In this document: in pieces, positions 5,600 through 40,124 of the stretch | Numbering within the stretch: position 1 is the first letter of the stretch | Layout of the letters: every line of letters starts with the position of its first letter | Origin: a virus | Virus record (IMG/VR): IMGVR_UViG_3300005613_003622 | Coordinates: 1-42,020 of that record | Length of the DNA stretch: 42,020 nt | Strand: one strand, 5' to 3' | Translations under genes and position numbers: made by a program | Notes under the pieces: model-generated | Told to the model about the DNA's origin: nothing | The model's database searches: none | The model's input: only the letters and a program-made list of their open reading frames with translations

Positions 5600-7372
5600 T
5601 TATATCATTGAACGAATTTCTATTTTTAATTTTTTAGCTTTTTTTATTTTTGAAGAATTACTATTCATATCACTACAAATTAAAACTGTTAAATCTTTTG
5701 TAACATTTTTTACAATTTCATATCCACAACTTCTAGCCATTGCTTCATAATAAGATCTTTTTTCTTTTAATTTTCCAGTAAAACAAATTGTTTTTGATTT
5801 TTTAGTTTTCTTTTCTTTTATTTTTAAAGTAGATAATAAATTACTAATATAATTTCTTTTTTCTGCAATACTTTGATAAATCCTAATAGCTATCTTATAT
5901 CCAATACCTTCAATAGATTCGAATTCATTAACAGTCATATTTTGGATTTGATTAAAACTTTTATTTGTTAATAAAATCTTACTCATTCTAACTCCGACAC
6001 CTTCAATATTAAGAGAAGCAAGTATTTGCCAATCATATACACCTTCTTTTATTATTTTTTGTATCTCATTATATAAATTTCTTGAAGAAATTTCAGCAAA
6101 ACCTTCTAATTTTATTATATCATCTATTGTTAATTTTAATATATCAATTATATTACAAACACCCAAATCAATAAGCTTTTTTATAGTAGGCTTACCCAAA
6201 TTTTCTATTCCTAATCTAATAACAGAATCATATAATGATATTAATAATTTCCCTTCACAACTTCCATTAGTACAATATAATTCTGGTTTTCTATAATCAA
6301 TAGGACAATTGCATATAGGGCAATAATCTAATTTTATTTCTTTTCTATCCCTTGTTGCATATATTACTTTTTGCACATTAGGGATCACATCTCCAGATCT
6401 TTCAATTACTAACATATCATTTATATGGATATCTTTATCTAAAATATATTTATAATTATGAAGATTTACATTAGAAATAAGTACCCCACCAATCATAACT
6501 GGATCAATTTTTCCAACAGGTGTTAATTTTCTTTTTCCAACTTGCCAAATTACTTCCCTTAAAATACTTTTTTCTGTAGGATTTGTAAATTTTAAAGCCA
6601 TTTGTCCATGTGGATGATGAGAGGTATTTCCCAAAGAATTAGAATATCCTGTATCTACTAACTTGAAAACTATACCATCAGCAGGAAATTCTGAATTTTG
6701 AAATACTTCAATTAATTCTTTCCAATTTGATTCTGTAAATTTTTCAAGTTCATTTAATTTTACTCTCTTAGATATGAAATTAAAAGGAACTAAAGTTAAA
6801 ATTTTTCCAAATGAGGTATCAATATCGTTTCTATGTAATATTCCAGAACATGTATTCCTAGATGTTTTTACTTTTTCATTTTTCTTTAATATTTTATATT
6901 TATCAAATTCTGATTTAGTAAATACTATCTCACCTCTGATATTATCATTTTTTGATAAAATTTTTATAATAGGTAATTTATTTGTAATATTTTCTCCAAC
7001 ATGACCATCACCCCTAGTAGAAAGGATCCCATTACTATAATCAGCACCACAACCATCTAATTTTAATTGAATTAAAAATTCCTCATTTTTATCCCTAGCT
7101 ACCTTTCTACACCATTCTAATATTTTTTCAATAGAATATACCTTATTTAAAGATAACATAGGAATTTTATGTTTTATTTTTAATGAGGTATTAATAGTAA
7201 ATTCATCTAATAATTTATTATTAGGAGATAATTTTCTTAATTTTTCAATTAATTTATCATATTCTATATCTGAAATTTCTGAATTATTTTGATTCCAATA
7301 TAAATCATTATGATATTTTATTGTATTTATTAATTCTTTTATTCGAATTTTTTTGTTTTCCATTTTACACAT
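5600..7372 (-). CDS. ligA: NAD-dependent DNA ligase LigA
   Basis: 590 residues. Domains in order: Ia-type N-terminal helices (YHNDLYWNQNNSEISDIEYD), adenylation domain with KLDG motif (K104 nucleophile), downstream STRGDGHVGENIT, and MALKF, OB fold around IGGVLISNVNLHN and VIERSGDVIPNV, a four-cysteine zinc finger (CPIC...CTNGSCEG), helix-hairpin-helix repeats (LEGFAEISSRNLY; IEGIGYKIAIRIY), and a C-terminal BRCT domain (KTICFTGKLKEKRSYYEA). Cellular LigA is about 670 residues, so this is a compact but complete enzyme. It seals nicks during replication. Two ATGs, three codons apart, are both possible starts; the gene follows the aminotransferase stop by 6 nt. Confidence 0.95.
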   Translation of the reverse strand: MCKMENKKIRIKELINTIKYHNDLYWNQNNSEISDIEYDKLIEKLRKLSPNNKLLDEFTINTSLKIKHKIPMLSLNKVYSIEKILEWCRKVARDKNEEFLIQLKLDGCGADYSNGILSTRGDGHVGENITNKLPIIKILSKNDNIRGEIVFTKSEFDKYKILKKNEKVKTSRNTCSGILHRNDIDTSFGKILTLVPFNFISKRVKLNELEKFTESNWKELIEVFQNSEFPADGIVFKLVDTGYSNSLGNTSHHPHGQMALKFTNPTEKSILREVIWQVGKRKLTPVGKIDPVMIGGVLISNVNLHNYKYILDKDIHINDMLVIERSGDVIPNVQKVIYATRDRKEIKLDYCPICNCPIDYRKPELYCTNGSCEGKLLISLYDSVIRLGIENLGKPTIKKLIDLGVCNIIDILKLTIDDIIKLEGFAEISSRNLYNEIQKIIKEGVYDWQILASLNIEGVGVRMSKILLTNKSFNQIQNMTVNEFESIEGIGYKIAIRIYQSIAEKRNYISNLLSTLKIKEKKTKKSKTICFTGKLKEKRSYYEAMARSCGYEIVKNVTKDLTVLICSDMNSNSSKIKKAKKLKIEIRSMI

Positions 7373-7378
7373 TATTTT

Positions 7379-8716
7379 CTATTTCAATTCCTCTATATTA
7401 TTATACACTTTCCAAAATGCATCAATTATATATTGAATTTGCAAATCATCTAATGGTAAACTATGATACATATTAGTAAAAAGAGTATTTTTCCATAAAT
7501 TTTCAGTTACAGGACATATCCCTTTTCTATATATTCTTTTACTATCTTTCCATGGATAAAATGTTTGGCCATATAATAATGTATGATCAAACAATGGAAA
7601 TAAATACAATGGTTTAATATATCCACATCCTAACATAGGTTTATCGGGTCTTCCTTTTTCTCCTGGTAATTCTGCTGCAACAGCTTTTATGAATAAATCT
7701 CTATGAATTCTAGATTCTTCTTGAATATATCTCATTGTATGGACATAATAACTATGTGTATTATCAGGGGGAATAAAAGTTCCTAAAAGTAATGGAATAC
7801 GTTTTATCCCTTCCCATATTTTTTCAACATTAATTATTCTACGATATATAAAATCTTTTAATTTATCTAATTGATAATATAAAATAGCAGCTTGAATTTC
7901 AGTCATTCTCATGTTAAAACCTAACATATTATTATGAGGACTAAATCCAAAATCTAGATTATATCTATCACTTCCCATATCATTATTTACAGCTTCTGCA
8001 TGATTTCTAATCATCTGACATCTAAGAGCTAATACTTCATTATCTGTAACAATCATTCCACCTTCACCAGCAGTAAGATGTTTCCCTTGTGTAAAAGAAA
8101 AACAACCAATATCTCCTAAAGTACCTGTATATTTATCTTTATATTTTGATCCAATTGCTTGAGCAGCATCTTCAATAATATATAAACCATAATCATTAGC
8201 AATTTCTTTTATTTTATCATAATCAGCAGGTTGTCCAAATAAATCAACTACAATAATTGCTTTTGTTTTTTTTGTTATTTTTTCTTTTATACTATCAGGA
8301 TCTAAGCAATAAGTAACTGGATTAATATCTGCAAATATTGGAATAGCATTCCATAATAGAGGAGCTGTTGCTGAACAAGACATAGACCAAGGAGTTACTA
8401 TCACTTCATCTCCAGGAGCCAAACCTATAGCACCACATGCTATTTGTAATGCACTTGTACAACTATTAACTGAAATAGCTTTTTTAATATTAAAATACTT
8501 TTCCCATTTTCTTTCTAATTTTTGTACCCATTCTCCGCCATAAAATCCAGGTGATTCTTGACTCCAATTACCACGAAAACTGGAAAGATTAACCTCACCT
8601 AATGCTGCTTTTTCCATTAATTGTTTAACTACATCAATTTCTTGCCAATTTATACTTAATTGATGAGGGAATGGATTTGTTGTAACCATTTTCCCGCCAT
8701 TAATTGCTAATTTCAT
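7379..8716 (-). CDS. DegT/DnrJ/EryC1/StrS-family PLP-dependent sugar aminotransferase
   Basis: 445 residues. SCTSALQIACGAIGLAPGDE and VIVTPWSM form the PLP phosphate site; VDLFGQPADYDKI, IIEDAAQAIGSKYK and FSFTQGKHLTAGEGGM follow, with K212 as the Schiff-base lysine. The family transfers an amino group from glutamate or glutamine to a keto-sugar nucleotide, as PseC/LegC do after PseB/LegB. At 445 residues it is longer than PseC (about 380), with an N-terminal extension and an insert more like the AHBA/scyllo-inosose branch, so the exact substrate is open. A good AAAGGAAAG site precedes ATG, with a TATAAT about 50 nt upstream. Confidence 0.88.
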   Translation of the reverse strand: MKLAINGGKMVTTNPFPHQLSINWQEIDVVKQLMEKAALGEVNLSSFRGNWSQESPGFYGGEWVQKLERKWEKYFNIKKAISVNSCTSALQIACGAIGLAPGDEVIVTPWSMSCSATAPLLWNAIPIFADINPVTYCLDPDSIKEKITKKTKAIIVVDLFGQPADYDKIKEIANDYGLYIIEDAAQAIGSKYKDKYTGTLGDIGCFSFTQGKHLTAGEGGMIVTDNEVLALRCQMIRNHAEAVNNDMGSDRYNLDFGFSPHNNMLGFNMRMTEIQAAILYYQLDKLKDFIYRRIINVEKIWEGIKRIPLLLGTFIPPDNTHSYYVHTMRYIQEESRIHRDLFIKAVAAELPGEKGRPDKPMLGCGYIKPLYLFPLFDHTLLYGQTFYPWKDSKRIYRKGICPVTENLWKNTLFTNMYHSLPLDDLQIQYIIDAFWKVYNNIEELK

Positions 8717-11174: not shown

Positions 11175-11951
11175 TTATCCTTCTCCTGCTATTTTAGCTT
11201 TGATATTTGAATTAATTTTTTGTAAATTAGGATTTACTCTTATAAATTGAATAACATCTTTTATAGAAAAATTATTAAAGTTTTTAAATTCTTCAAAAAT
11301 AATTTGTAATAATTCATAATCCTCCTTAGTATCTAGTGTGATTCTCATTTCTGGATAATTAAATATTTTTGGAGCAGGATAATTACCTATTTTATAATCA
11401 TTTGGAAATTGCAAAATATTCCATCCTGTATGTTGTTTATGTTTTTCATTAGTTATTTTATGATAAACACTAGATAAAGCATCCAATGTATATACTTGTA
11501 TATCACATCCATCCGGCCATGTTCTTTTTACTATATTTGAATAATAATCTAAATTATTATCAACTAATTTTTCTATAAATAAATCTATGTAATAAGAATC
11601 AACTAAAGGACAATCTGCTGTAATATCTATAATGATATCTGGAAGATTTTTATCTATTTTTATTGTATATGCAGCATTTAATACTCTAAATATTACATCA
11701 TTCATACTTCCTTGAAAAATAAGAGCATAATCTTTCCATATTCGCTGTCTCCAATTCATAATAATATCTTTATTTTGTAGTGTCTTTGGAATAGCAATGA
11801 CTGTTTTATCTACATATTTTGAATTAGAAATTCTTTCAATTATCCATTGAAGTACAGGTTTTCCAGCTAAATCTAATAAAACTTTTCCAGGTAATCTAGT
11901 ACTTTCCATACGAGCTTGAACAATTACCAAAATACGTTTCTTTTTATACAT
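11175..11951 (-). CDS. SpsF/acylneuraminate-type cytidylyltransferase
   Basis: 258 residues. The N-terminus IVQARMESTRLPGKVLLDLA and GKPVLQWIIERI is the nucleotidyltransferase signature of the SpsF/CMP-sugar synthase group; DIIIDITADCPLVDSYYID carries the metal-binding acidic residues, and MRITLDTKEDYELLQIIFEE the C-terminal block. The family activates sugars, including nonulosonates, with CTP. With the NeuB-type synthase it would complete a route to an activated nine-carbon sugar. AAGGAAAT precedes ATG. It is the first gene after the inverted repeat at 11971-12140. Confidence 0.85.
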   Translation of the reverse strand: MYKKKRILVIVQARMESTRLPGKVLLDLAGKPVLQWIIERISNSKYVDKTVIAIPKTLQNKDIIMNWRQRIWKDYALIFQGSMNDVIFRVLNAAYTIKIDKNLPDIIIDITADCPLVDSYYIDLFIEKLVDNNLDYYSNIVKRTWPDGCDIQVYTLDALSSVYHKITNEKHKQHTGWNILQFPNDYKIGNYPAPKIFNYPEMRITLDTKEDYELLQIIFEEFKNFNNFSIKDVIQFIRVNPNLQKINSNIKAKIAGEG

Positions 11952-12145: not shown

Positions 12146-12748
12146 TTATTCTACAATACTTATTTCATTTTTTTTCTCTACTTTATATATTTTATCCGCT
12201 GCTTCCATTAATCTTTCATTATGTGTAATCATTATAATTTGAATATTATTGTTAACCGCTAAATCTTGTAATAATTGACAAACTAATGTTTGTACTTTAA
12301 TATCTATTGAAGGGAAAGGTTCATCTAATAATAATATATTTCTTAACTTTGGTTTTTTTAATTTATAAATAACTAATCTTAATGCTAAAGTAGCTATGTC
12401 AACTGGACCATATCCTGTTCTTTTTCCTGGTTTAAATTCTATACCATTTTTTTCAAATATTAAATCAGCTTCAGTTTTTCCTCTTCTTGGTAAAAATTTA
12501 ACTTTAAAAGTGTAAGGAATTGTATAAACAAAAGATAATGCATTAGAAGGTAATGATGATAAACCAAATTCTAATTTTTGTTGAGTTTGTTTTGCCACAG
12601 TTTGTATTATAAAATCAGATTCTTTAATTATATCATTTTTTTCTATAGAATTAGTAATTTCTTTTTTTAAATCTTCTATTTGTTGAATTAATTTTGATTT
12701 GTCTTTTTTTAACTGTTCTATAGCATATCTAAAATATTTTAATTCCAT
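12146..12748 (-). CDS. sbcC: Rad50/SbcC (T4 gp46-like) C-terminal ATPase half as a separate protein
   Basis: 200 residues. Residues 5-45 form a short coiled coil; then come the ABC signature region (KRTGYGPVDIATLALRLVIY, 109-128), Walker B ILLLDEPFPSID (138-149) and the switch histidine IIMITHN. This is the C-terminal lobe of a Rad50-type ATPase; the Walker A lobe is encoded separately at 13911-15014, with mre11 and a coiled-coil gene between. The two lobes would have to assemble from separate chains to bind ATP. Length is far below whole SbcC (about 1000) or T4 gp46 (about 560). No frameshift links the pieces: intact genes of other function separate them. Confidence 0.88.
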   Translation of the reverse strand: MELKYFRYAIEQLKKDKSKLIQQIEDLKKEITNSIEKNDIIKESDFIIQTVAKQTQQKLEFGLSSLPSNALSFVYTIPYTFKVKFLPRRGKTEADLIFEKNGIEFKPGKRTGYGPVDIATLALRLVIYKLKKPKLRNILLLDEPFPSIDIKVQTLVCQLLQDLAVNNNIQIIMITHNERLMEAADKIYKVEKKNEISIVE

Positions 12749-12753
12749 AATAA

Positions 12754-13011
12754 TTAATCCTCAAAATATTCTTTAAATATAGAATATTCTTCTAATTCTT
12801 CCATTCCTTTTTCTATTTTATTATCTATAGAAGAAAGATTTTCTTTTAATTGTTTTAATTTATTTTCTATTTCATCTAAATTAGAACATCCTAATAATCT
12901 TTTACGCTGGTCATTTAAGCTATTTATTTCTCCTTTTAAAATATTTTCTTGTTTTTCTGCTTCATCTATTTTATTCTTTAATTCCATTAAAATTTTAAGA
13001 TTTTTTTTCAT
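12754..13011 (-). CDS. small coiled-coil protein within the rad50/mre11 cluster
   Basis: About 85 residues, almost wholly heptad-like (ILMELKNKIDEAEKQENILK ... LKENLSSIDNKIEKGMEELE). ATG at 13009-13011 is preferred because AAGGA lies upstream; a TTG at 13029 is the alternative. A single cysteine (GCSN) lies mid-chain, but there is no CxxC. It may supply the descending coiled-coil arm of the split Rad50, between the hook half and the C-terminal ATPase half. It overlaps the mre11 end. Confidence 0.6.
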   Translation of the reverse strand: MKKNLKILMELKNKIDEAEKQENILKGEINSLNDQRKRLLGCSNLDEIENKLKQLKENLSSIDNKIEKGMEELEEYSIFKEYFED

Positions 13012-13942
13012 TGCAAAATCCTTTGTCAATAAAATCTATTATTTCTTCTCTTGTATTATTTCTATTATAATAAAATTGTAAATTTTTTTTAAATAATAAT
13101 TCTATATCTTCACTTATTATATCTTCTTCAGTTTTTAATTCTTCAGAAAAAGAATTTATTTTAATTATTTCTTTTTCTATAGTATTTTCTTCAATAGGTA
13201 AATAAATTGGTTCTATAGAATTATTTTCATCATACCATAAAAATACAGCTGGTTTATAATCAATTTGTGTAATTCTTGATCTCATCATAGATCCCGGATT
13301 AACTACCAGACTATTTTTATTAACAAAATTAAAACTTAAATGATTATGTCCTGTAACTATTAAATCAAATTGAGGAGCTAATCTACGAACAGCATTTATT
13401 TTAACAGCATCTTTTGACATCCATTCAGAATATTTTGTATATACATACATATGAGCAACAGCTATTTTTAAACCATTACAATCTTTATACTTTTCTGGAA
13501 TTTCTAATGTAGCTTTCTTATTAAATACAGATCCATAATGAAATCCAAATACAAGATGATAATTATATCTCTTACTAGTACTAGGAATTGGTACTGGATT
13601 TTTATATCCATCTTTTAATAAAGTTATAGATTCTGCTGCTTCTAATACAGATAAACTAGATCTATCCAATTTATCAGTATTATGGTCTGGTATTTCATGA
13701 TTTCCCGGAACTGTAATAATAGAATTATTTATATTACGAATTAACCATCCTTCTAAAAATGGAGATGATTTCCAAGTATTAAAAAAGTCTCCAGCATCTA
13801 AACAAGGAATTTTATATTTTTTCTGTAAATTATCTATAAATAAATGTTTTCTACATTGAGCTTCCCAATAATCATCAGTTCTGGCTCTAGGTTTATTATC
13901 TCTGTAATGTCTATCTGCTGATAGAATTAATGTTGGTTTCAT
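12995..13942 (-). CDS. sbcD: Mre11/SbcD-like nuclease (T4 gp47-like)
   Basis: 315 residues with the calcineurin-like metallophosphoesterase motifs in order: SADRHYRD (usually DxH; here D-R-H), LDAGDFF, VPGNHEIP, VAHMYVY and VTGHNHLSF. This is the nuclease partner of Rad50 in recombination, end processing and replication restart. It overlaps the Rad50 N-half gene by 32 nt upstream and the coiled-coil gene downstream, so the cluster is translationally coupled. The C-terminal 70 residues, acidic and helical, probably form the Rad50-binding region. Confidence 0.9.
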   Translation of the reverse strand: MKPTLILSADRHYRDNKPRARTDDYWEAQCRKHLFIDNLQKKYKIPCLDAGDFFNTWKSSPFLEGWLIRNINNSIITVPGNHEIPDHNTDKLDRSSLSVLEAAESITLLKDGYKNPVPIPSTSKRYNYHLVFGFHYGSVFNKKATLEIPEKYKDCNGLKIAVAHMYVYTKYSEWMSKDAVKINAVRRLAPQFDLIVTGHNHLSFNFVNKNSLVVNPGSMMRSRITQIDYKPAVFLWYDENNSIEPIYLPIEENTIEKEIIKINSFSEELKTEEDIISEDIELLFKKNLQFYYNRNNTREEIIDFIDKGFCNEKKS

Positions 13943-15014
13943 TTATTTTTGCTCCACATAATATACATTCTTTCCCCATTTTATTTTTATATTCTTTTCC
14001 ATATTTTAATAAGTTATTTTTAATTGATTTTAATATTTCTTTTTTGTATAACAAAAGTTTTTTTGTATTTTCAATTTCATTATATCGTTCTTGAACATTT
14101 TCTTTTTTTAACAATAATTCCGAATATCCATCAGATAATTCTATTAATCTATTAATTTTTTCTTTTGTTTTAAAGAAGTCTTTATACTCATCTAATTTAA
14201 ATAATATATGATTTATTTTTTCTACTAATATATCATATTCTTCTAAAAGTCGTATTCGTTTTTCTTTACTAATTAAAAATTTTTCTAGTTTTTTTATTTT
14301 ATCTTTATGTTTTAAAATTTCTTTATGTTTTTTTAAATCTATTTCTTTATTATGTAAAGAAATATTAATATCATTAATCTGTCTTAGTATATTTCTACCT
14401 TGATTTCTTTTTTTCTCTAAATTTTCTAATTTAATGACTTTTTCTTCTAAAGAATCTATATCATTATATTCTTCTAATTGTAATTCCAATGATTTTAATT
14501 CATGATTCTGATTAGATAAATAATTATTAATTTGTTCTTTTTCTCTTTTTATATAGGATTGAGCAATATCTATATCATCTAAATTAGTTATATTATTCAA
14601 ATATCTTGCTACTTCACCAGAAGTATTAGATAGTAAAAATATAGATGACATTTGTGGTTGTATATTTATATTATCCATATTTAACAATGTTTGAACATCT
14701 TGAGGAACATTTTGTTTAAATGCAGTAAACTTATCATTCCCTATTATATATCTATTCACAGAATCAGATCGTTCTCTAATGATTTTTTTTCCTTCTATCA
14801 ATTCTAATATTACTTTAGTTATTTCATTAGGTTTGATCCAATAAGGTCTATAATCATTATCTAGAGGTCTATTTTTCCAAATCCATTCTATTGCTCTAAA
14901 TAAAGAACTTTTCCCTTGATCATTTTCTCCAAGAATAATATTAACTCCTGGATGAAAATTTAATATAGTATTTTTATGTCCTTCATAATTAATTAATTGT
15001 AAAGATTTAAACAT
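13911..15014 (-). CDS. sbcC: Rad50/SbcC N-terminal ATPase half with terminal zinc hook
   Basis: About 367 residues from ATG 15012-15014 (GAGG site upstream; a TTG four codons earlier is the alternative). FKSLQLINYEGHKNTILNF and the Walker A loop GENDQGKSS (29-37) start the ABC lobe; ITKVILELIEGKKIIRERS follows. From about 165 to 340 it is heptad-rich coiled coil, and 15 residues before the end lies CILC, the CxxC zinc hook. The protein stops just past the hook, exactly half a Rad50. The Walker B half is at 12146-12748. The sequence next to the hook (MGKECILCGAKI) is canonical. Confidence 0.9.
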   Translation of the reverse strand: MFKSLQLINYEGHKNTILNFHPGVNIILGENDQGKSSLFRAIEWIWKNRPLDNDYRPYWIKPNEITKVILELIEGKKIIRERSDSVNRYIIGNDKFTAFKQNVPQDVQTLLNMDNINIQPQMSSIFLLSNTSGEVARYLNNITNLDDIDIAQSYIKREKEQINNYLSNQNHELKSLELQLEEYNDIDSLEEKVIKLENLEKKRNQGRNILRQINDINISLHNKEIDLKKHKEILKHKDKIKKLEKFLISKEKRIRLLEEYDILVEKINHILFKLDEYKDFFKTKEKINRLIELSDGYSELLLKKENVQERYNEIENTKKLLLYKKEILKSIKNNLLKYGKEYKNKMGKECILCGAKINETNINSISR

Positions 15015-15233: not shown

Positions 15234-15440
15234 TTAATATAAAATTCTACAACACATTATCCCTTTTACATAATAAAGATGTTCGCAATTTTTTCCTTTT
15301 GCTTTCCATAATGAACAATATTCTTCTCTACATTCTCGATCAGTAGAAACTTTTATTTTTTTTCTAAATATTTTATCAAAATTTTCTTTACCCTGTTTAC
15401 TATAAGTTTTCAATCCTGGACAAATTAAATTCTCACTCAT
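15234..15440 (-). CDS. small cysteine-rich protein
   Basis: 68 residues with seven cysteines (LICPG, RECREEYC, GKNCEHLY, IMCCRIL), suggesting a bound metal or Fe-S site. Not recognised as a known family. Its ATGA start overlaps the end of the metallophosphoesterase gene. Confidence 0.5.
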   Translation of the reverse strand: MSENLICPGLKTYSKQGKENFDKIFRKKIKVSTDRECREEYCSLWKAKGKNCEHLYYVKGIMCCRILY

Positions 15441-15964
15441 TTTATTATTCCTTTTCTATTATTTTCTAATTCTTCTTGTATTTGATCTAAAGATACTGGA
15501 AAATAATTCCAAACATCTATTCCAACATTTATTACTTTTTTATAAGATCTAAATAAAGTATGAACATGACCACACAGTAATATCCAATCATTAATAGCAC
15601 AATAAGCAGCAGGATCATGATTTAATACACATCTTCCTATTTCTGGTAAATATAATTCAAAACTAGTATGAACACTTTCAAATCCTATATTTAGATAATC
15701 TATAGGATATAATCTATCATGATTTCCTAGGATTAAATGTTTATGTCCATTCATTTTTTTAACTATATGCTCTAAATAATCTTTATATAAAGAACCTCTC
15801 AAACTTAAATCACCAAGAAAATAAACCATGTCTTCTTTACTAACAACTGAATTATAGTTTTTTATTAGTATAGAATCCATTTTATTTGTATTTTTAAAAG
15901 GTCTATTACAATATTTTATTGCATTTTCATGACCAAAATGCAAATCTGCTGTAAAATAAATCAT
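15437..15964 (-). CDS. calcineurin-like metallophosphoesterase
   Basis: 175 residues with all the metal motifs: FTADLHFGHENAI (DxH), VYFLGDLSLRG (GDxxxRG), LILGNHDRL (GNHD), VLNHDPA and LLCGHVHTLF (GHxH). The form TADxHFGHxNxI with KMNGHKHLILGNHD is that of the small phage/bacterial phosphoesterases of unknown substrate; some act on 2',3'-cyclic phosphates, which would fit an RNA-repair role next to an RNA ligase in the same genome (inference). It overlaps the Ntn-hydrolase gene by one base. Confidence 0.85.
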   Translation of the reverse strand: MIYFTADLHFGHENAIKYCNRPFKNTNKMDSILIKNYNSVVSKEDMVYFLGDLSLRGSLYKDYLEHIVKKMNGHKHLILGNHDRLYPIDYLNIGFESVHTSFELYLPEIGRCVLNHDPAAYCAINDWILLCGHVHTLFRSYKKVINVGIDVWNYFPVSLDQIQEELENNRKGIIK

Positions 15965-25855: not shown

Positions 25856-28462
25856 TTATCCTTTATATTCTTTCATTTCATACCAATTTCCATTTATCTC
25901 TGATATTTCAATATCTACATTTAAAGGAATATTTATCCATTTCCATTTTTTTCTTATATCTTCACACATAGTTTTCTTTATAATAGGAACAATATATTCT
26001 AATTCATTCGGATCAACATCCATATTCATAGCATCATGAATCTGCCCTATAATTTTACTTTTCCATTTTTCTTTTTTTGCTCTTTTATTCACTTGAATAA
26101 GTGACCATAATAGACAATGAAAAGCAGTTCCCTGAATTTTGTAATTTAAAACTTCATTTTTTTTCATTAATCCAGAACATCTAAATCCTGTAAGAAAATC
26201 AAAATATCCTTTTTCTTGATAATCATTCCATACTTTTTCCTTCCATTTTCCATAAATTTTAAATTTATTATGCCAAAAATCATATTGACATGTTCTTAAA
26301 TAATTTTCGTAGCTATGAAAAGATTTTATTCCATTTTTTTTAAGATGATCTATAAGTAATATATTATCTTTTGTTTTTTTTTGTAATATAATATTCCATA
26401 ATGCTGGGGCACAATCTTTATAATAAGATCCGTAAAATTGAGCAAATACCCATTTATTTTTTGCCTCATATCTTATTTCTTTAGTAATTTGATTTGGTTT
26501 TAATTTAAATAATAGACACGCTTGATCTCTATGCATATCTGTAGTAGAATCATTTAAATATTTAACCATTACAGGATCCTTATGATAACAAGTACTGATA
26601 TGAACTTCTAATCCTGAATAATCTACTTCTAGTAATAAATTACCTTTTCTAGGGATTAACCCTTTTCTTACTATTTTTTGAGCTTCCATATTTCTCTTGG
26701 GAATGTTTTGGAAATTTGGATTTGAGCTACTAGATCTGAAAGTACGAACAGTATTAAGTAAAAATCCTGGATGTATAAAACTATTAGCTGAATTTTTTAA
26801 AAATCCTTTTAAATATGTATTTCTTATTCTATACAATTTTCTATATTGTAAAATGGTATTAGTAAATGGTATATTTATTTGTGATAATGCATTTGCATTT
26901 ACTGATCCGATAGATTCTTCTTCAGCTTCTTCTACATCAAATATCTGATTTTTTTTTATTTTCAAATATCTGTATAATAAATCTTGCATATGAAGATTAG
27001 ATCTCGGATTAAATTTTTTTCGATTATTTTCTTTCCATATATTTTTTATTTCATTATAATTATATATCCTTTTTTCTAATTTTGTTAATCTTTTTTGTAA
27101 ATTATTACTTTGTAATTCATAATATTTTTTATCTATTAGTATACCATCATTCTCTATTTTGCTAAATTCTAATGCACCATTATGTAATAATTTATAACCT
27201 TTATATAAAGAAGTTTTAACAATATATTTTTGTTTTAACCATAATTTATATGTATATTTAGAATCGATACCACAATATAATAAAACTTTATTAAATATAA
27301 ATGAATTATTTTTTATTTCTTCTAATTTATTTTTTCCAAATATACCATCATTTGATTTTAAATATGGAGAAACTTCATTTTCATAACCAAATATACCAAA
27401 TTCTTTATAAATTTGAAATTTTAATCCAGTAATTCCAGGTCTATTATCTATACAATGAGCAGCTAGCATAGTATCCCAATACCATCCACAAATATCACAA
27501 TTAAAAATTGCTCTAGTCCAACTATCTTCATATTTAAAATTATGGGCTATTTTTTTAATATTAGAATTTGTTAGTATAGATTTTAACAAACGCATAAGTA
27601 TTATATTATCTTCAAAAATAGGAAATACTATTGTTTTTACATCCGATTCATTATTTTTACAATAAGCAATAGACATACAAATAATTTTATGTTTATTTAC
27701 GAATGGTATTAAACCAGTAGTTTCATAATCAAAAGCTATAGGAGAATATTTCATTTCTGATATTTCTTTTAAATGAAAAATAACTTCTTTTGGATCTGTA
27801 ATTAAAAGTATATTATCTTTTTCATTATCTATCATAAAAGGTTCATTCCAATTAATAGCTTTTTCTAAATGATTTGAAAATAAATTTGATAATACTTTTT
27901 TTAATGCTGGATTATTTTCATTTCTTTGAATATAAGATGGATGATATGTAGGAAATACCCAACATCCTATCTCTTGATCCGGTATCCTAAATCCTACCCA
28001 TTTTCCCATACTATTTATAGTCATTCTATCTCCTATTAAAGAAGATAAAGCTGTTAATCCTAATGTAATAATTTTTTTAGGCTTATATTTAATTATATTT
28101 TTGAAAATATGGGATGAACAATATTTAATTTCTGTATTTGTTGGTTTTCTATTATGAGGTGGTCTACAAATCACACTATTATCTTTCCAACAATCCCCAT
28201 CTAAATCTATATTTAATTTTTCTAAAGTATTTCTAAGTAATTGACCTGCTTTTCCAATTAATTGAATTCCTCTTTTATCCTCACTTTCTCCAGGAGCTTC
28301 TGCTATAAACATAATTTTTTTCTTACCTTCACCTGAACATGACATTTTTGGAGATATACATTTTTTATATAGTCCACATTTTATACAATTATTACCATCC
28401 CCAATAGATTTTAATTGATTTTTATTCATTTGTTTCGGCCAAAAATATTTATTATTTTTCAT
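25856..28462 (-). CDS. uracil-DNA glycosylase / family A DNA polymerase fusion
   Basis: 868 residues. Residues 1-210 are a family 4/5-type uracil-DNA glycosylase: CIKCGLYKKC, IMFIAEAPGESEDKRGIQLI plus GKAGQLL (54-76), CRPPHNRKPTNTE, LGLTALSSLIG and a TYHPS motif. Then a 3'-5' exonuclease domain (AFDYETTGLIPF; IAHNFKYEDSW; YCGIDSKYTYKLW). The polymerase domain has motif A LLEVDYSGLEVHISTC, motif B in KNKWVFAQFYGSYY, IQGTAFHCLLWSLI and motif C IGQIHDAMN. This is the replicative polymerase. A UDG-Pol A fusion is known from SPO1-like phages. ATGA overlap couples it to the radical SAM gene upstream. Confidence 0.93.
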   Translation of the reverse strand: MKNNKYFWPKQMNKNQLKSIGDGNNCIKCGLYKKCISPKMSCSGEGKKKIMFIAEAPGESEDKRGIQLIGKAGQLLRNTLEKLNIDLDGDCWKDNSVICRPPHNRKPTNTEIKYCSSHIFKNIIKYKPKKIITLGLTALSSLIGDRMTINSMGKWVGFRIPDQEIGCWVFPTYHPSYIQRNENNPALKKVLSNLFSNHLEKAINWNEPFMIDNEKDNILLITDPKEVIFHLKEISEMKYSPIAFDYETTGLIPFVNKHKIICMSIAYCKNNESDVKTIVFPIFEDNIILMRLLKSILTNSNIKKIAHNFKYEDSWTRAIFNCDICGWYWDTMLAAHCIDNRPGITGLKFQIYKEFGIFGYENEVSPYLKSNDGIFGKNKLEEIKNNSFIFNKVLLYCGIDSKYTYKLWLKQKYIVKTSLYKGYKLLHNGALEFSKIENDGILIDKKYYELQSNNLQKRLTKLEKRIYNYNEIKNIWKENNRKKFNPRSNLHMQDLLYRYLKIKKNQIFDVEEAEEESIGSVNANALSQINIPFTNTILQYRKLYRIRNTYLKGFLKNSANSFIHPGFLLNTVRTFRSSSSNPNFQNIPKRNMEAQKIVRKGLIPRKGNLLLEVDYSGLEVHISTCYHKDPVMVKYLNDSTTDMHRDQACLLFKLKPNQITKEIRYEAKNKWVFAQFYGSYYKDCAPALWNIILQKKTKDNILLIDHLKKNGIKSFHSYENYLRTCQYDFWHNKFKIYGKWKEKVWNDYQEKGYFDFLTGFRCSGLMKKNEVLNYKIQGTAFHCLLWSLIQVNKRAKKEKWKSKIIGQIHDAMNMDVDPNELEYIVPIIKKTMCEDIRKKWKWINIPLNVDIEISEINGNWYEMKEYKG

Positions 28463-30445: not shown

Positions 30446-30961
30446 TTACTTTTTCCATCCTAATAAAGCCACATGTCTATTTATTTTCATTTTATTATTT
30501 ATTTTTTCTAAAATTAATCCTGAATGCTTACATGTTCTATAAACTTGAACTCCACTAGCATGTGGCATTAATGTAAATATATTTGTTCTTAATAATAACA
30601 TAGCTTTTTCTACACGTTTCTTTAATTGTTTTCTAGATGTGCCTTGCCAATATAGACAATTTCTTAATTGCCGTTCTGTCCAATCTGGATGTTTAATTTT
30701 CATTTTATTTACATGTTTTTCTAAATCAAATTCCGAATGCACAATATACATATTTTTTTCTATATCAAATATATCAGTTATATAAGGAGCTGCTGGAGGA
30801 CACTTATCACGAATTCCATACATAGGGCATCCCTTTTGATGTCCCGGATATTTAAGATTACACCAATATAATACTTTCTTAGAATAGAAAAGTTTCTTTA
30901 CTTTAATTATCCAATTTGGTATTATATTTAATTTTTTTTTAGGCCAATAAAAATTATTCAT
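30446..30961 (-). CDS. cysteine-rich DUF2284-like metal-binding protein
   Basis: About 171 residues from ATG 30959-30961 (overlaps the radical SAM stop as ATGA; GAAGGAA upstream), longer reading from 30991 less likely. Cysteines in CNLKYPGHQKGCPMYGIRDK and CPPAAPY resemble the CPxY...CPP cores of DUF2284-like putative metal-binding proteins; later YWQGTSRKQLKKRVEKAMLL and YRTCKHSGL. It is coupled to the SplB-like radical SAM gene, so the two probably act together. Function unknown. Confidence 0.55.
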   Translation of the reverse strand: MNNFYWPKKKLNIIPNWIIKVKKLFYSKKVLYWCNLKYPGHQKGCPMYGIRDKCPPAAPYITDIFDIEKNMYIVHSEFDLEKHVNKMKIKHPDWTERQLRNCLYWQGTSRKQLKKRVEKAMLLLRTNIFTLMPHASGVQVYRTCKHSGLILEKINNKMKINRHVALLGWKK

Positions 30962-32403
30962 CGTGTTAAATCTATTCCTTCTTCTGCCCATTCTTTTTCA
31001 TAGTCATGAGGATTATATCTATAAACTAGATTCTTATTTTCATCTATTCCTATTGGAATTAATTTGTTATGAAGATAATTTCTAGGATTACTAAAACTCC
31101 TTAAATTATTCCAATGCTTTTCTAAAAATGTTCTATGTGTCATATTATTTCTATCAGATGAATTTAGACCAATTACACCAACATGGTCATTTGTTAAGGT
31201 CTTACTATCTAAAAACTTTGTTTTTTCTTTTGGATAAATATCATCTATTGTAAATTCTGTCTTAATTCCAGTAGTATGATATATTCTTCGAGCTTCTTTA
31301 ATAGCATAGGTTAATTGAGCTTTACTCCAATTTTCTAATAATTTATTATCAGGAAAATTATCTGGCATTCCACAACAACTTCCACTCATATTTAATTCTT
31401 TAAAGTCAGGATCACTACAACTAAATACTAAATTATTTTTTAAACAAAACTTATACATCTTTTTAATATATCGTTCCTTTACTAATCTATTTAAACGTCG
31501 ATATCCACCTCTTTCTCTAGGACTCAAAATACTGAAATATTTTTTTAAATCAGAAACACCAATCATACTAGCTAACCATTCATATCTTTTTGTCATACTT
31601 GTATTACATCTCGCATCCATGGCAAAAAATTCTGTACTAATTGCCCTTACTCCGGCAGCTAATGCATCATCTAATAATTTATCTAAAGAAAGATCAGTTA
31701 TACCTATAATAAAAGGACGTAATCTTAATATAGTCCAATATCCTAGATCACTCAACATTTTCAATATATTTAATCTCTTTGTAGGTGATTGCACTCCAAC
31801 TTCTACATACTTAGCTAAATCATCATCTCTAGTAATAATACTAACTTGAAAAGCAAAATTCTTTTGATTTTTATATTTTTCAAATAAATCTCTATATTCT
31901 TTTTTTAAGATTGCATCACCTTTAAAACTAAACAATGTAGGATAATTCATAGCACCTAATTCTTGAATTAGTGGATATCCTACCATATTAGTTTTTTCAA
32001 AATTGCAAAATGGATCAGCTAATCCTCCCCAATGTAATAGAAATTTCTTTTTATAAAATTGTTCATAAAGAACTTTTCCCTTTTCACCTTTTACTTCACC
32101 TTTCATATTTTTAATCATATTTTCAATATTAACAGCTCTCAGACTTAAATTAGTAATGGCAGGATTGTTAACTTTAAACACATAAGCAAAACAATACATA
32201 CATCCAAGACTACAAAAGTTATAATGATCAAAAGTTAGTGGCATAGAACAATCTGGAAATTCAGAACTAATACGAGGACTTCCATAACCACCTTTTGTTA
32301 ATTTAGTACCTTTGTTTTTACGTACCCAAATCAAACCCTCGTCTATCAATTCTTTAGGAATATTTTTCCCCATTAATTGACAACTTTTTATTTTTTTTGT
32401 CAT
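30958..32403 (-). CDS. radical SAM enzyme, SplB-like
   Basis: 481 residues. FDHYNFCSLGCMYCFAYVF has C64, C68, C71 (CxxxCxxC). LLHWGGLADPFCNFEKTN, LFSFKGDAIL, FQVSIITRDDDLAKYVEVGV and SPTKRLNILKMLSDLGY follow the spore-photoproduct-lyase-like barrel pattern. A later C-rich stretch (SGSCCGMPDN) may hold a second cluster. SPL repairs a thymine dimer; this sequence is longer and divergent, so a base-modifying or other reaction is equally possible. It overlaps the upstream gene by 50 nt, and TGGAGAT supports this start. Confidence 0.8.
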   Translation of the reverse strand: MTKKIKSCQLMGKNIPKELIDEGLIWVRKNKGTKLTKGGYGSPRISSEFPDCSMPLTFDHYNFCSLGCMYCFAYVFKVNNPAITNLSLRAVNIENMIKNMKGEVKGEKGKVLYEQFYKKKFLLHWGGLADPFCNFEKTNMVGYPLIQELGAMNYPTLFSFKGDAILKKEYRDLFEKYKNQKNFAFQVSIITRDDDLAKYVEVGVQSPTKRLNILKMLSDLGYWTILRLRPFIIGITDLSLDKLLDDALAAGVRAISTEFFAMDARCNTSMTKRYEWLASMIGVSDLKKYFSILSPRERGGYRRLNRLVKERYIKKMYKFCLKNNLVFSCSDPDFKELNMSGSCCGMPDNFPDNKLLENWSKAQLTYAIKEARRIYHTTGIKTEFTIDDIYPKEKTKFLDSKTLTNDHVGVIGLNSSDRNNMTHRTFLEKHWNNLRSFSNPRNYLHNKLIPIGIDENKNLVYRYNPHDYEKEWAEEGIDLTR

Positions 32404-37445: not shown

Positions 37446-40124
37446 CTATCCACAAACTCCAGTACTATTACCACATATCTGACAAGTAAAACATGATCCT
37501 ATTCTAAACATAATAGAACCGCATCTATCACAAAATGGATTAGAACTGTCTTGTTTTGGTTTATTTTCTTGCATTTTTTCTTTTTTCTTTTCTGTTTTTA
37601 TTTTTAATCCCAATTCATCTAATTTTTCTTTTGTTAAATATTCATAAGCTAAGAATTTAAACACATAATCAAGAATAGATTTTGCAAATCTAATATCTTT
37701 ATTTCTTGTTATACCGGAAGGATCAAATCTAGTATCTTTCATTTTTCTTACCATATGAAACAAAGGAACACCATATTGTATACCCATACTAGTTATAATA
37801 GCAACAGAATCTAGTAATCCGGATAAAGTACTACCTTGTTTAGAGACGCTTAAAAATACTTCTCCAAGTGTTCCATCATTATATTCTCCTGTTTTTATAT
37901 ATCCACTAACAGTTCCTATAGTAAATTTATGGTTTTTACCTTTTCTGGTAACTGGTAATTTTCTTCTAACAGGTTTATTATTTGTAGATTTATTTTTAAT
38001 TATATCACCCATTATTTTTTGATCTACCTGTTTTACATTTAAAGGTTGACTATTTTTAGAATTATCTCTATAGATTGTAATCCCTTTTAATCCTTTTTTA
38101 TAAGCTTCTAAATATAAATTATACACATCTTCAACTGTAGATTCTTCCGGTAAATTAATTGTTTTGGAAATAGCACCTGAAATAAAAGGTTGAACAGCTG
38201 CCATCATATTTATATGAGCCAAAGAAGATAATTGTCTAGTTCCATTTTTCATAGCAGTATCAAATATAGGTAAATGCTCTTTGTTTAAAATTGTTTCTTC
38301 TAAATTATCCATATTAACTAGAATATCAGCACATTGTGTATCACTATAACCCAAATTTAATATAGCATCTCTTATAACTATATTTTCTAATTTTAATTCA
38401 GCTTCACCAGAACCTGCTAATGTTTTATATTTTACTAATGAAAATTCTGGTTCAATTCCAAACGTATCACACCCCATTAAAAACGAAATAGTGCCAGTAG
38501 GAGCAATTAGAGTAACCTGAGAATTTCTCATATGAATTGTATCTTTTAGAATCAACCAATTCGCACTAGTTTGACTTATCAAATTAGTAAGCCATAATGG
38601 TATAAATCTATTTCTTTTTTCTTTTATTTTTTCTATATGCATTTTTTGATGTAATTCTAATATTTCATGCATTCTATCTTTATTTTGATTCCATCTAGCA
38701 AAATTAGTATATGATAAATCTCGTGATATTTTAGAACTCTGTAAATAAGCAATAGAAGTCATTGAAGATGTAATCATACTAGCTATATATCTTCCTTTTT
38801 CAGAATCATAAGGAACACCTAAATACATTAAAGTAGCTCCTAAATTAGAAAATCCTAATCCCAATGCTCTATAATCTCTTGTATTTTTTTCTATTTCTTT
38901 AGTAGGATAAGATGCTTTGTCTATAATAATATCTTGAGCTGTTATCATAGTTTGAATTACTTTTTCGTAAGTTTTAAAATCAAAATTTACTTTATTTTCA
39001 TACCCAATTTCAGCTCCATGATAATCAGTTCCAGTTTCTAATCCTTTAGAAAAAAACTTTAATAAATTGATAGAAGCCAAGTTACATGATGTATTATTTG
39101 GTCCTACATATTCACCACAAGGATTAGTTGATTCAAATACAGAAGTATTCGAACATGTATTCCATTTTTGCATAGTATCTAAAAATAATAAACCAGGACA
39201 ACCATCTGTCCATGCTTGTTTTGCTATTTCCATTAATAATTCTTTTGCATACATACGTTTATAATGTGAATTATCTAAACGATTCATTAAGAAAAAATCT
39301 CTTTTCATTTCAGAATAATCTTTTATTTGAACCATCTCCATAAACCAATCAAAAATACCAACACTTAAATTAGTATTTTGAAAAAATACATGATCAGTCA
39401 TGTCATAACCAAGATAAGGTTTTATTCCTGCTTGAGCTAATATTTTTAATTTCTTTTCTTCTATGTTTTTACATGAAATAAAATTTTCAATATCAGGATG
39501 ATCTATATTTACACAAGCTAATTTTGCTGACCTTCTTAAAGTACCACCCGATCTTATAACCCCAGCATTCACATCTTGTGATTTGAGAAATGATACCGGT
39601 CCAGATGCTGTACCTCCTCCATTTACTTTTTCATTTGATCCTCTTAAGTTAGAAAGATTCATTCCACTACCAGATCCATTCTTAAAAATTAATGATTCTG
39701 TTTTCAATGTTTCTGTTATAGATTCCATATCATCATTAATTTCTAATATAAAACAAGCACTCAATTGAGGATTATTAGATAAACCTATATTAAAATAAAC
39801 TGGGGAATTAAAAGCACAATATTGATGAATCTGAAAATACTTTAGATAGTATAAAAATTCATCATATTCATTTTTATCTTTAAAATAATTTTGCTCTTTT
39901 CCCCAGTCTGCTATTGTTTCAGATACTCTATCTATCATTTCTGTTAGTTTAGTTTCTTCTTTTTTTGCTGAATTACATAGATATTTATCCGTTACAATAT
40001 TAACAGAATTATCAGAAAAATAATCAGGAAAAATCACTTCTTTTTCTAGGAGAATTTTTCCTTTCTTACTTACTATTTTTGCAATACGTTTTGTAAAATT
40101 AATCCCATCATAAGGAGACTTCAT
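37446..40124 (-). CDS. nrdJ: class II (B12-dependent) ribonucleotide reductase
   Basis: 892 residues. LSACFILEINDDMESI, FKNGSGSGMNLSNLRGSNEK, SRGG-like VIRSGGTLRRSAKL, FESTNPCGEYVGPNNTSCNL and IAPTGTISFLMGCDTFGIEP are the NrdJ/NrdA barrel motifs, including the NPCGE catalytic cysteine site. No oxygen-dependent R2 partner is seen. The C-terminus has a six-cysteine tail (CDRCGSIM ... CQICGNSTGVCG), typical of NrdJ thioredoxin-accepting or zinc ends. It makes dNTP precursors with adenosylcobalamin and works with or without oxygen. AAGGAATTTTCC precedes ATG. It is a single, full-length enzyme. Confidence 0.93.
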   Translation of the reverse strand: MKSPYDGINFTKRIAKIVSKKGKILLEKEVIFPDYFSDNSVNIVTDKYLCNSAKKEETKLTEMIDRVSETIADWGKEQNYFKDKNEYDEFLYYLKYFQIHQYCAFNSPVYFNIGLSNNPQLSACFILEINDDMESITETLKTESLIFKNGSGSGMNLSNLRGSNEKVNGGGTASGPVSFLKSQDVNAGVIRSGGTLRRSAKLACVNIDHPDIENFISCKNIEEKKLKILAQAGIKPYLGYDMTDHVFFQNTNLSVGIFDWFMEMVQIKDYSEMKRDFFLMNRLDNSHYKRMYAKELLMEIAKQAWTDGCPGLLFLDTMQKWNTCSNTSVFESTNPCGEYVGPNNTSCNLASINLLKFFSKGLETGTDYHGAEIGYENKVNFDFKTYEKVIQTMITAQDIIIDKASYPTKEIEKNTRDYRALGLGFSNLGATLMYLGVPYDSEKGRYIASMITSSMTSIAYLQSSKISRDLSYTNFARWNQNKDRMHEILELHQKMHIEKIKEKRNRFIPLWLTNLISQTSANWLILKDTIHMRNSQVTLIAPTGTISFLMGCDTFGIEPEFSLVKYKTLAGSGEAELKLENIVIRDAILNLGYSDTQCADILVNMDNLEETILNKEHLPIFDTAMKNGTRQLSSLAHINMMAAVQPFISGAISKTINLPEESTVEDVYNLYLEAYKKGLKGITIYRDNSKNSQPLNVKQVDQKIMGDIIKNKSTNNKPVRRKLPVTRKGKNHKFTIGTVSGYIKTGEYNDGTLGEVFLSVSKQGSTLSGLLDSVAIITSMGIQYGVPLFHMVRKMKDTRFDPSGITRNKDIRFAKSILDYVFKFLAYEYLTKEKLDELGLKIKTEKKKEKMQENKPKQDSSNPFCDRCGSIMFRIGSCFTCQICGNSTGVCG

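Follow-up and report, generated by a model that had tools for sequence, protein, structure and literature searches.

The window analysed here is a 42,020-base virus record in which four genes, all on the minus strand and surrounded by replication genes, encode the putative parts of a split Rad50 together with an Mre11-type partner (Table 1). The N-half comprises the N-lobe of an ABC head, including a Q-loop, followed by a helical arm and a terminal CxxC hook. Its residues G29, G34 and K35 are invariant across 33 aligned N-halves, as are both hook cysteines among the aligned relatives. The Mre11/SbcD-type protein keeps the metal-binding motifs of calcineurin-like phosphoesterases. The small coiled-coil protein, here termed s, most likely starts at the ATG at 13011, with an alternative TTG 18 nt further upstream. 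In addition to the motifs listed in the table, the C-half contains a D-loop and a conserved H-loop histidine (H176). The genes for the N-half and Mre11 overlap by 32 nt and those for Mre11 and s by 17 nt, and a gap of 5 nt separates s from the C-half. The first-pass annotation had described an N-terminal gene with Walker A, a coiled coil and a CxxC zinc hook followed by 14 residues, as well as mre11 and a small coiled-coil gene between the two halves, and the open reading frames bear this out. It had also ascribed an ABC signature and Walker B to the C-terminal gene; Walker B is present, whereas the signature does not take the form LSGGE/Q but reads TGYGPVD.

Table 1. Genes and sequence motifs of the split Rad50 cassette in the window.
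Feature	Position	Strand	Basis or remark
Rad50 N-half, 367 aa	13911..15014	-	ATG at 15014; ORF, AAA_23, profile matches, predicted fold
Walker A GENDQGKS, N-half residues 29-36	14907..14930	-	sequence
Zinc-hook motif CILC, N-half residues 350-353	13956..13967	-	exactly 14 residues before the stop
Mre11/SbcD-type phosphoesterase, 315 aa	12995..13942	-	Metallophos (Pfam) 5.5e-8, above cut-off
Small coiled-coil protein s, 85 aa	12754..13011	-	directly upstream of the C-half; conserved s profile
Rad50 C-half, 200 aa: short coil stub and C-lobe of ABC head	12146..12748	-	ORF; profile match
Variant ABC signature TGYGPVD, C-half residues 111-117	12398..12418	-	G112, G114 and D117 conserved
Walker B NILLLDEP, C-half residues 137-144	12317..12340	-	D142 and E143 invariant (32 C-halves)

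Elsewhere in the window, also on the minus strand, a single 868-aa protein joins a uracil-DNA glycosylase domain, a 3'-5' exonuclease and a family A DNA polymerase (25856-28462). Other genes encode an NAD-dependent DNA ligase with OB-fold, HhH and BRCT domains (5600-7372), a vitamin B12-dependent ribonucleotide reductase with a TSCPD domain (37446-40124) and a radical SAM protein judged by eye to be similar to spore photoproduct lyase, with a Pfam match just under the cut-off (30958-32403). The replication region contains sugar genes for a NeuB-type synthase, a DegT-type aminotransferase and, by eye, a CMP-sugar synthase (1395-2213, 7379-8716 and 11175-11951). A second, unrelated small phosphoesterase (phrog_547; 15437-15964) lies upstream of the N-half at a distance of a few hundred bases.

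In profile comparisons with solved structures, the N-half matched archaeal Rad50 best (5f3w, 1.6e-19; 3aux, 9.5e-19), and the C-half matched the separately expressed C-chains of Pyrococcus Rad50 (3qkr_B, 3e-16; 1ii8_B, 1.3e-15). None of the four window proteins reached the cut-off of any NCBIfam model; the curated SbcC model TIGR00618 was absent among the NCBIfam matches of the halves, and no Rad50 model scored above cut-off. Of the hallmarks of Rad50/SbcC, the N-lobe with Walker A and Q-loop and the C-lobe with Walker B, D-loop and H-loop are present, and no polypeptide that combines both lobes and both arms was found in the window or in any relative examined. The predicted structure of the window N-half (pLDDT 83, pTM 0.38) shows a Rad50-type N-lobe followed by near-continuous helices from residue 145 to 345, leading to the hook. 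RecF and SMC heads match this predicted N-lobe as well, which reflects the shared head fold; the sequence profiles place archaeal Rad50 first.

A joint head was modelled from Peptoniphilus DNA (L079), with N and C read in one frame and the out-of-frame s region serving as linker (730 residues, alignment A12). Both lobes were predicted at high confidence, and residues 2-725 of the model superpose on the Pyrococcus Rad50 head 4ncj_A with a Z score of 27.8 over 295/311 residues at 3.3 A. SMC heads score equal to Rad50 heads against this model, as expected of a shared fold. Because the chain was linked and the predictor was trained on Rad50, the model is a consistency check and not proof.

Relatives of the window genes recur with the same cut. 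The Microcystis phage Mvi-JY20 and one IMG/VR contig have the order N-Mre11-s-C, identical to that of the window, and the Bacillus phage vB_BboS-125 carries N, an AP2-domain gene, s and C, followed by Mre11. Scans of IMG/VR with single window proteins returned one relative or none, and a scan with an N-half alignment returned 60 loci. When earlier loci are counted in, 58/58 phage N-halves with a complete 3' end stop 2-22 residues past the CxxC, and none of these 58 is fused to a C-half. Two gene orders dominate the phage loci, namely N-Mre11-s-C, as in the window, and N-s-C-Mre11; the first-pass picture of mre11 lying between the halves thus holds for the window subgroup and not for relatives with other orders. 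In the 95 loci where both the N and the C gene are complete, every N-half contains CxxC, which in 94 of them lies no more than 45 residues from the C-terminus, and an s gene was detected in 94. The earlier proposal of a tidy split and not a frameshift is upheld: since Mre11 separates the two genes and about 95 loci, isolate phage genomes included, show this same cut, frameshift, misassembly and pseudogene formation can be discarded. The Microbacterium phage Magritte is a possible case of a hookless split Rad50; its halves are separated by about 93 kb of the record (N-half, L071 3001-4053; C-half, L005 284-934), the N-half lacks CxxC, and no s gene was recognised beside either.

In two loci the pieces are naturally fused. 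In one (L123), Mre11 is joined to the N-half in a 937-aa protein, with s and C coming next. In another (L141, 2652-4754, minus strand), Mre11, the N-lobe and the C-lobe form one 700-aa chain that has neither coil nor hook, and no s lies nearby. The latter is the only N-C fusion found among the relatives examined, and this apparently minimal MR complex is worth a study of its own; the fused gene adjoins a probable addB. As encoded, the Mre11-N and Mre11-N-C fusions tie the putative pieces into one machine, and the absence of s near the coil-less protein, a single case, suggests that s belongs with the arm. A further example may exist in the Bacillus phage 0305phi8-36. Its protein A7KV18 ranks second among the viral structural matches to the window N-half, and a 2011 description calls it an Mre11/Rad50 fusion with one P-loop segment not observed (PMC3175470). 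A split Rad50 would explain the missing segment, which is expected of an Mre11-N fusion; in contrast to our reading, the protein was described as a fusion oddity and not as half of a split Rad50 (PMC3175470).

The family is not confined to phages. A scan of bacterial genomes yielded 14 loci, all from Bacillota and all split where the contig has both halves. Several of these are not prophages; the genes sit between recA and rny, which encodes RNase Y, in some loci with probable pgsA and cinA upstream, as judged from translations. In an extended set of 47 bacterial loci (13 of the first 14 plus 34 fetched after C-half searches), with recA and rny recognised by short motifs, the order recA-mre11-N-s-C-rny was found in 24, and recA lies upstream of the cassette in 30. 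The C-half matched in 15/196, 29/200 and 48/299 genomes in samples from two classes and one phylum, and all 37 C-half carriers tested also have the N-half. Because the C-half is carried by about 16% of the sampled Bacillota genomes, usually within this recA-rny arrangement, the split Rad50 is, judged by gene content and position, a chromosomal system as well as a phage one. The search of these approximately 695 genomes with the C-half (E<=1e-25) also bears on whether relatives encode a single fused rad50: all matching ORFs are shorter than 300 aa except the coil-less Mre11-N-C fusion (G448/L141), and no intact fused rad50 was found. In three bacterial loci (L092, L093 and L094), the C-half stands alone before rny and after a folD-like gene, and N, s and Mre11 are absent from the fetched stretch.

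Canonical SbcC, called by TIGR00618 at E<=1e-10, is rare in genomes that carry the split genes. It was found in 3/44 carriers versus 22/39 non-carriers in a first sample and in 2/40 versus 18/39 in a second (pooled, 5/84 versus 40/78; Fisher p 4e-11, species kinship uncorrected). The split system thus appears, from these co-occurrence patterns, to stand in for the one-piece SbcC in many Bacillota. Three of the five SbcC-positive carriers (G009/L085, G399/L123 and G499/L142) have their split genes away from the recA locus, and these might be mobile copies.

In a tree of concatenated N- and C-lobes, 99/99 split members fall into one clade (SH-like support 0.925), with fused Bacillota SbcC, a T4-type gp46 and a T5-type SbcC outside it; by this tree, the split members have a single origin. 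The clade is marked by the C-half motif xG[GYHKE]GxxD, which is present in 90/95 members, 81 of them in the GGG form. The canonical LSGG(E/Q) signature is thus replaced by the family form xGGGxxD, in which glycine takes the place of the signature serine, whereas nearly all fused Bacillota SbcC compared have LSGGE. ATPase activity is therefore not assured.

The lengths of the pieces bear on how the arms are built and on the role of s. The span from head to hook in the N-half is 286-511 residues, whereas s together with the C-half as far as the signature amounts to 166-267 residues, with s staying near 75-130. The two sides are uncorrelated (rho 0.16, p 0.15, n=88), and the s profile, run with filters off, found no match in the coils of fused SbcC. 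On these grounds, we set aside an equal-arm model for most members, as well as the idea that s is a recognisable piece of the canonical SbcC coil. Since the C side is much shorter and does not covary with the N arm, the C-side arm of most members probably stops short of the hook. It is accordingly doubtful that s supplies the absent outer section of the C-terminal arm, an arrangement in which N, s and C would make up two equal arms with the hook at their tip. In its favour, s is a coiled coil encoded immediately ahead of C, no s lies near the coil-less fusion, and the lengths roughly agree in the shortest members; against it, the N arm varies widely while s hardly changes, and no counterpart of s turned up in fused SbcC coils. 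As a conserved further component of the putative complex, s is most likely a clamp or accessory of the arm. Of the earlier proposal, a multi-chain Rad50 split at the hook is strongly supported by the relatives, the co-occurrence of the genes, the fusions and the predicted joint head, whereas arms joined only through hook and heads do not fit the lengths in most members.

Taken together, the split genes very probably encode a naturally multi-chain Mre11-Rad50 complex of the SbcCD type. Two other readings fare far worse. The halves could be remnants of a broken rad50 or the product of an assembly rearrangement, with no working enzyme; the interruption of a usually single gene by Mre11 would fit this, but the same cut in isolate phages and bacterial chromosomes, the invariant catalytic motifs and the intact, overlapping ORFs leave it hardly any credence. 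An ATPase-nuclease for defence, anti-phage or inter-phage, in place of a repair complex is improbable, if somewhat less so. It draws on weak lobe matches to mad3 (7e-15, C-half) and LmuB (4e-10, N-half), but these are matches of generic ABC lobes, the fixed recA-rny position and the rarity of SbcC fit a housekeeping role, and the window cassette lies among replication genes.

For the multi-chain complex, the partnership of Mre11 with the split Rad50, in which Mre11 would bind at the root of the Rad50 coil, finds support in gene neighbourhood and in the fusions; its assembly, zinc binding and nuclease function and the role of s we infer as follows. The N-half would supply Walker A, the Q-loop, the long helical arm and the terminal zinc hook, and the C-half the variant signature, Walker B, the D-loop and the H-loop. 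Held together non-covalently, the two would make up a single ABC head to which Mre11 binds; a pair of these heads would close on ATP, as in Rad50, together with an Mre11 dimer. Two N-halves would pair through their terminal CxxC motifs, presumably via zinc, while s would most likely clamp the arm, its partner being either the N arm or the C-half's coil stub. Such a complex would process DNA ends for recombination. In phages it would act much like T4 gp46/gp47; in Bacillota, encoded beside recA, it would take the place of SbcCD. The hookless Magritte N-half speaks against this reading. More tentatively, and short of what we would call probable, these proteins could form a distinct Mre11-Rad50 branch with a non-covalent N:C head, a Gly-type signature, a hook on a one-sided arm and a dedicated small clamp subunit. 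Chains of such a complex could open or exchange not just at the hook but also at the head, and many phages and a sizeable share of Bacillota would depend on it as their main machine for end processing.

Rad50 is usually pictured as a single chain that forms two arms, one leading out to the hook and one returning from it. In the widespread natural form described here, the chain stops at the hook, and the other lobe is carried by a short separate chain accompanied by s. This form makes it possible to test whether continuous arms are needed, how the state of the head and the hook communicate and what length of C-side arm is required. It also fills an annotation gap, as many Bacillota seemingly without SbcCD carry the split system, often beside recA. 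Our literature search, which took in few subscription papers and no preprints, found no description of a natural split Rad50/SbcC; the parts are already known, and nothing in the literature searched describes the natural split, s, the altered signature or the Bacillota site next to recA. In PHROGs, the same families are catalogued as unconnected entries, the N-half as 16465 "exonuclease" and the C-half as 15167 "ATPase" (e.g., in Bacillus phage vB_BboS-125), with the split Rad50 unrecognised.

The split proteins share with Rad50/SbcC and Mre11/SbcD (archaeal MR, E. coli SbcCD, T4 gp46/gp47) the ABC lobes, Walker A and B, the CxxC hook and an Mre11-type partner gene alongside. Unlike these systems, they are divided onto two chains cut at the hook, have the extra subunit s and a short C-side arm, and carry xGGGxxD in place of LSGGE. 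The engineered Pyrococcus Rad50 heads (1f2t, 1ii8, 3qkr) likewise form one head from N- and C-segments on separate chains; those are laboratory-made and lack most of the coil, whereas the split in phages and Bacillota is natural and lies at the hook.
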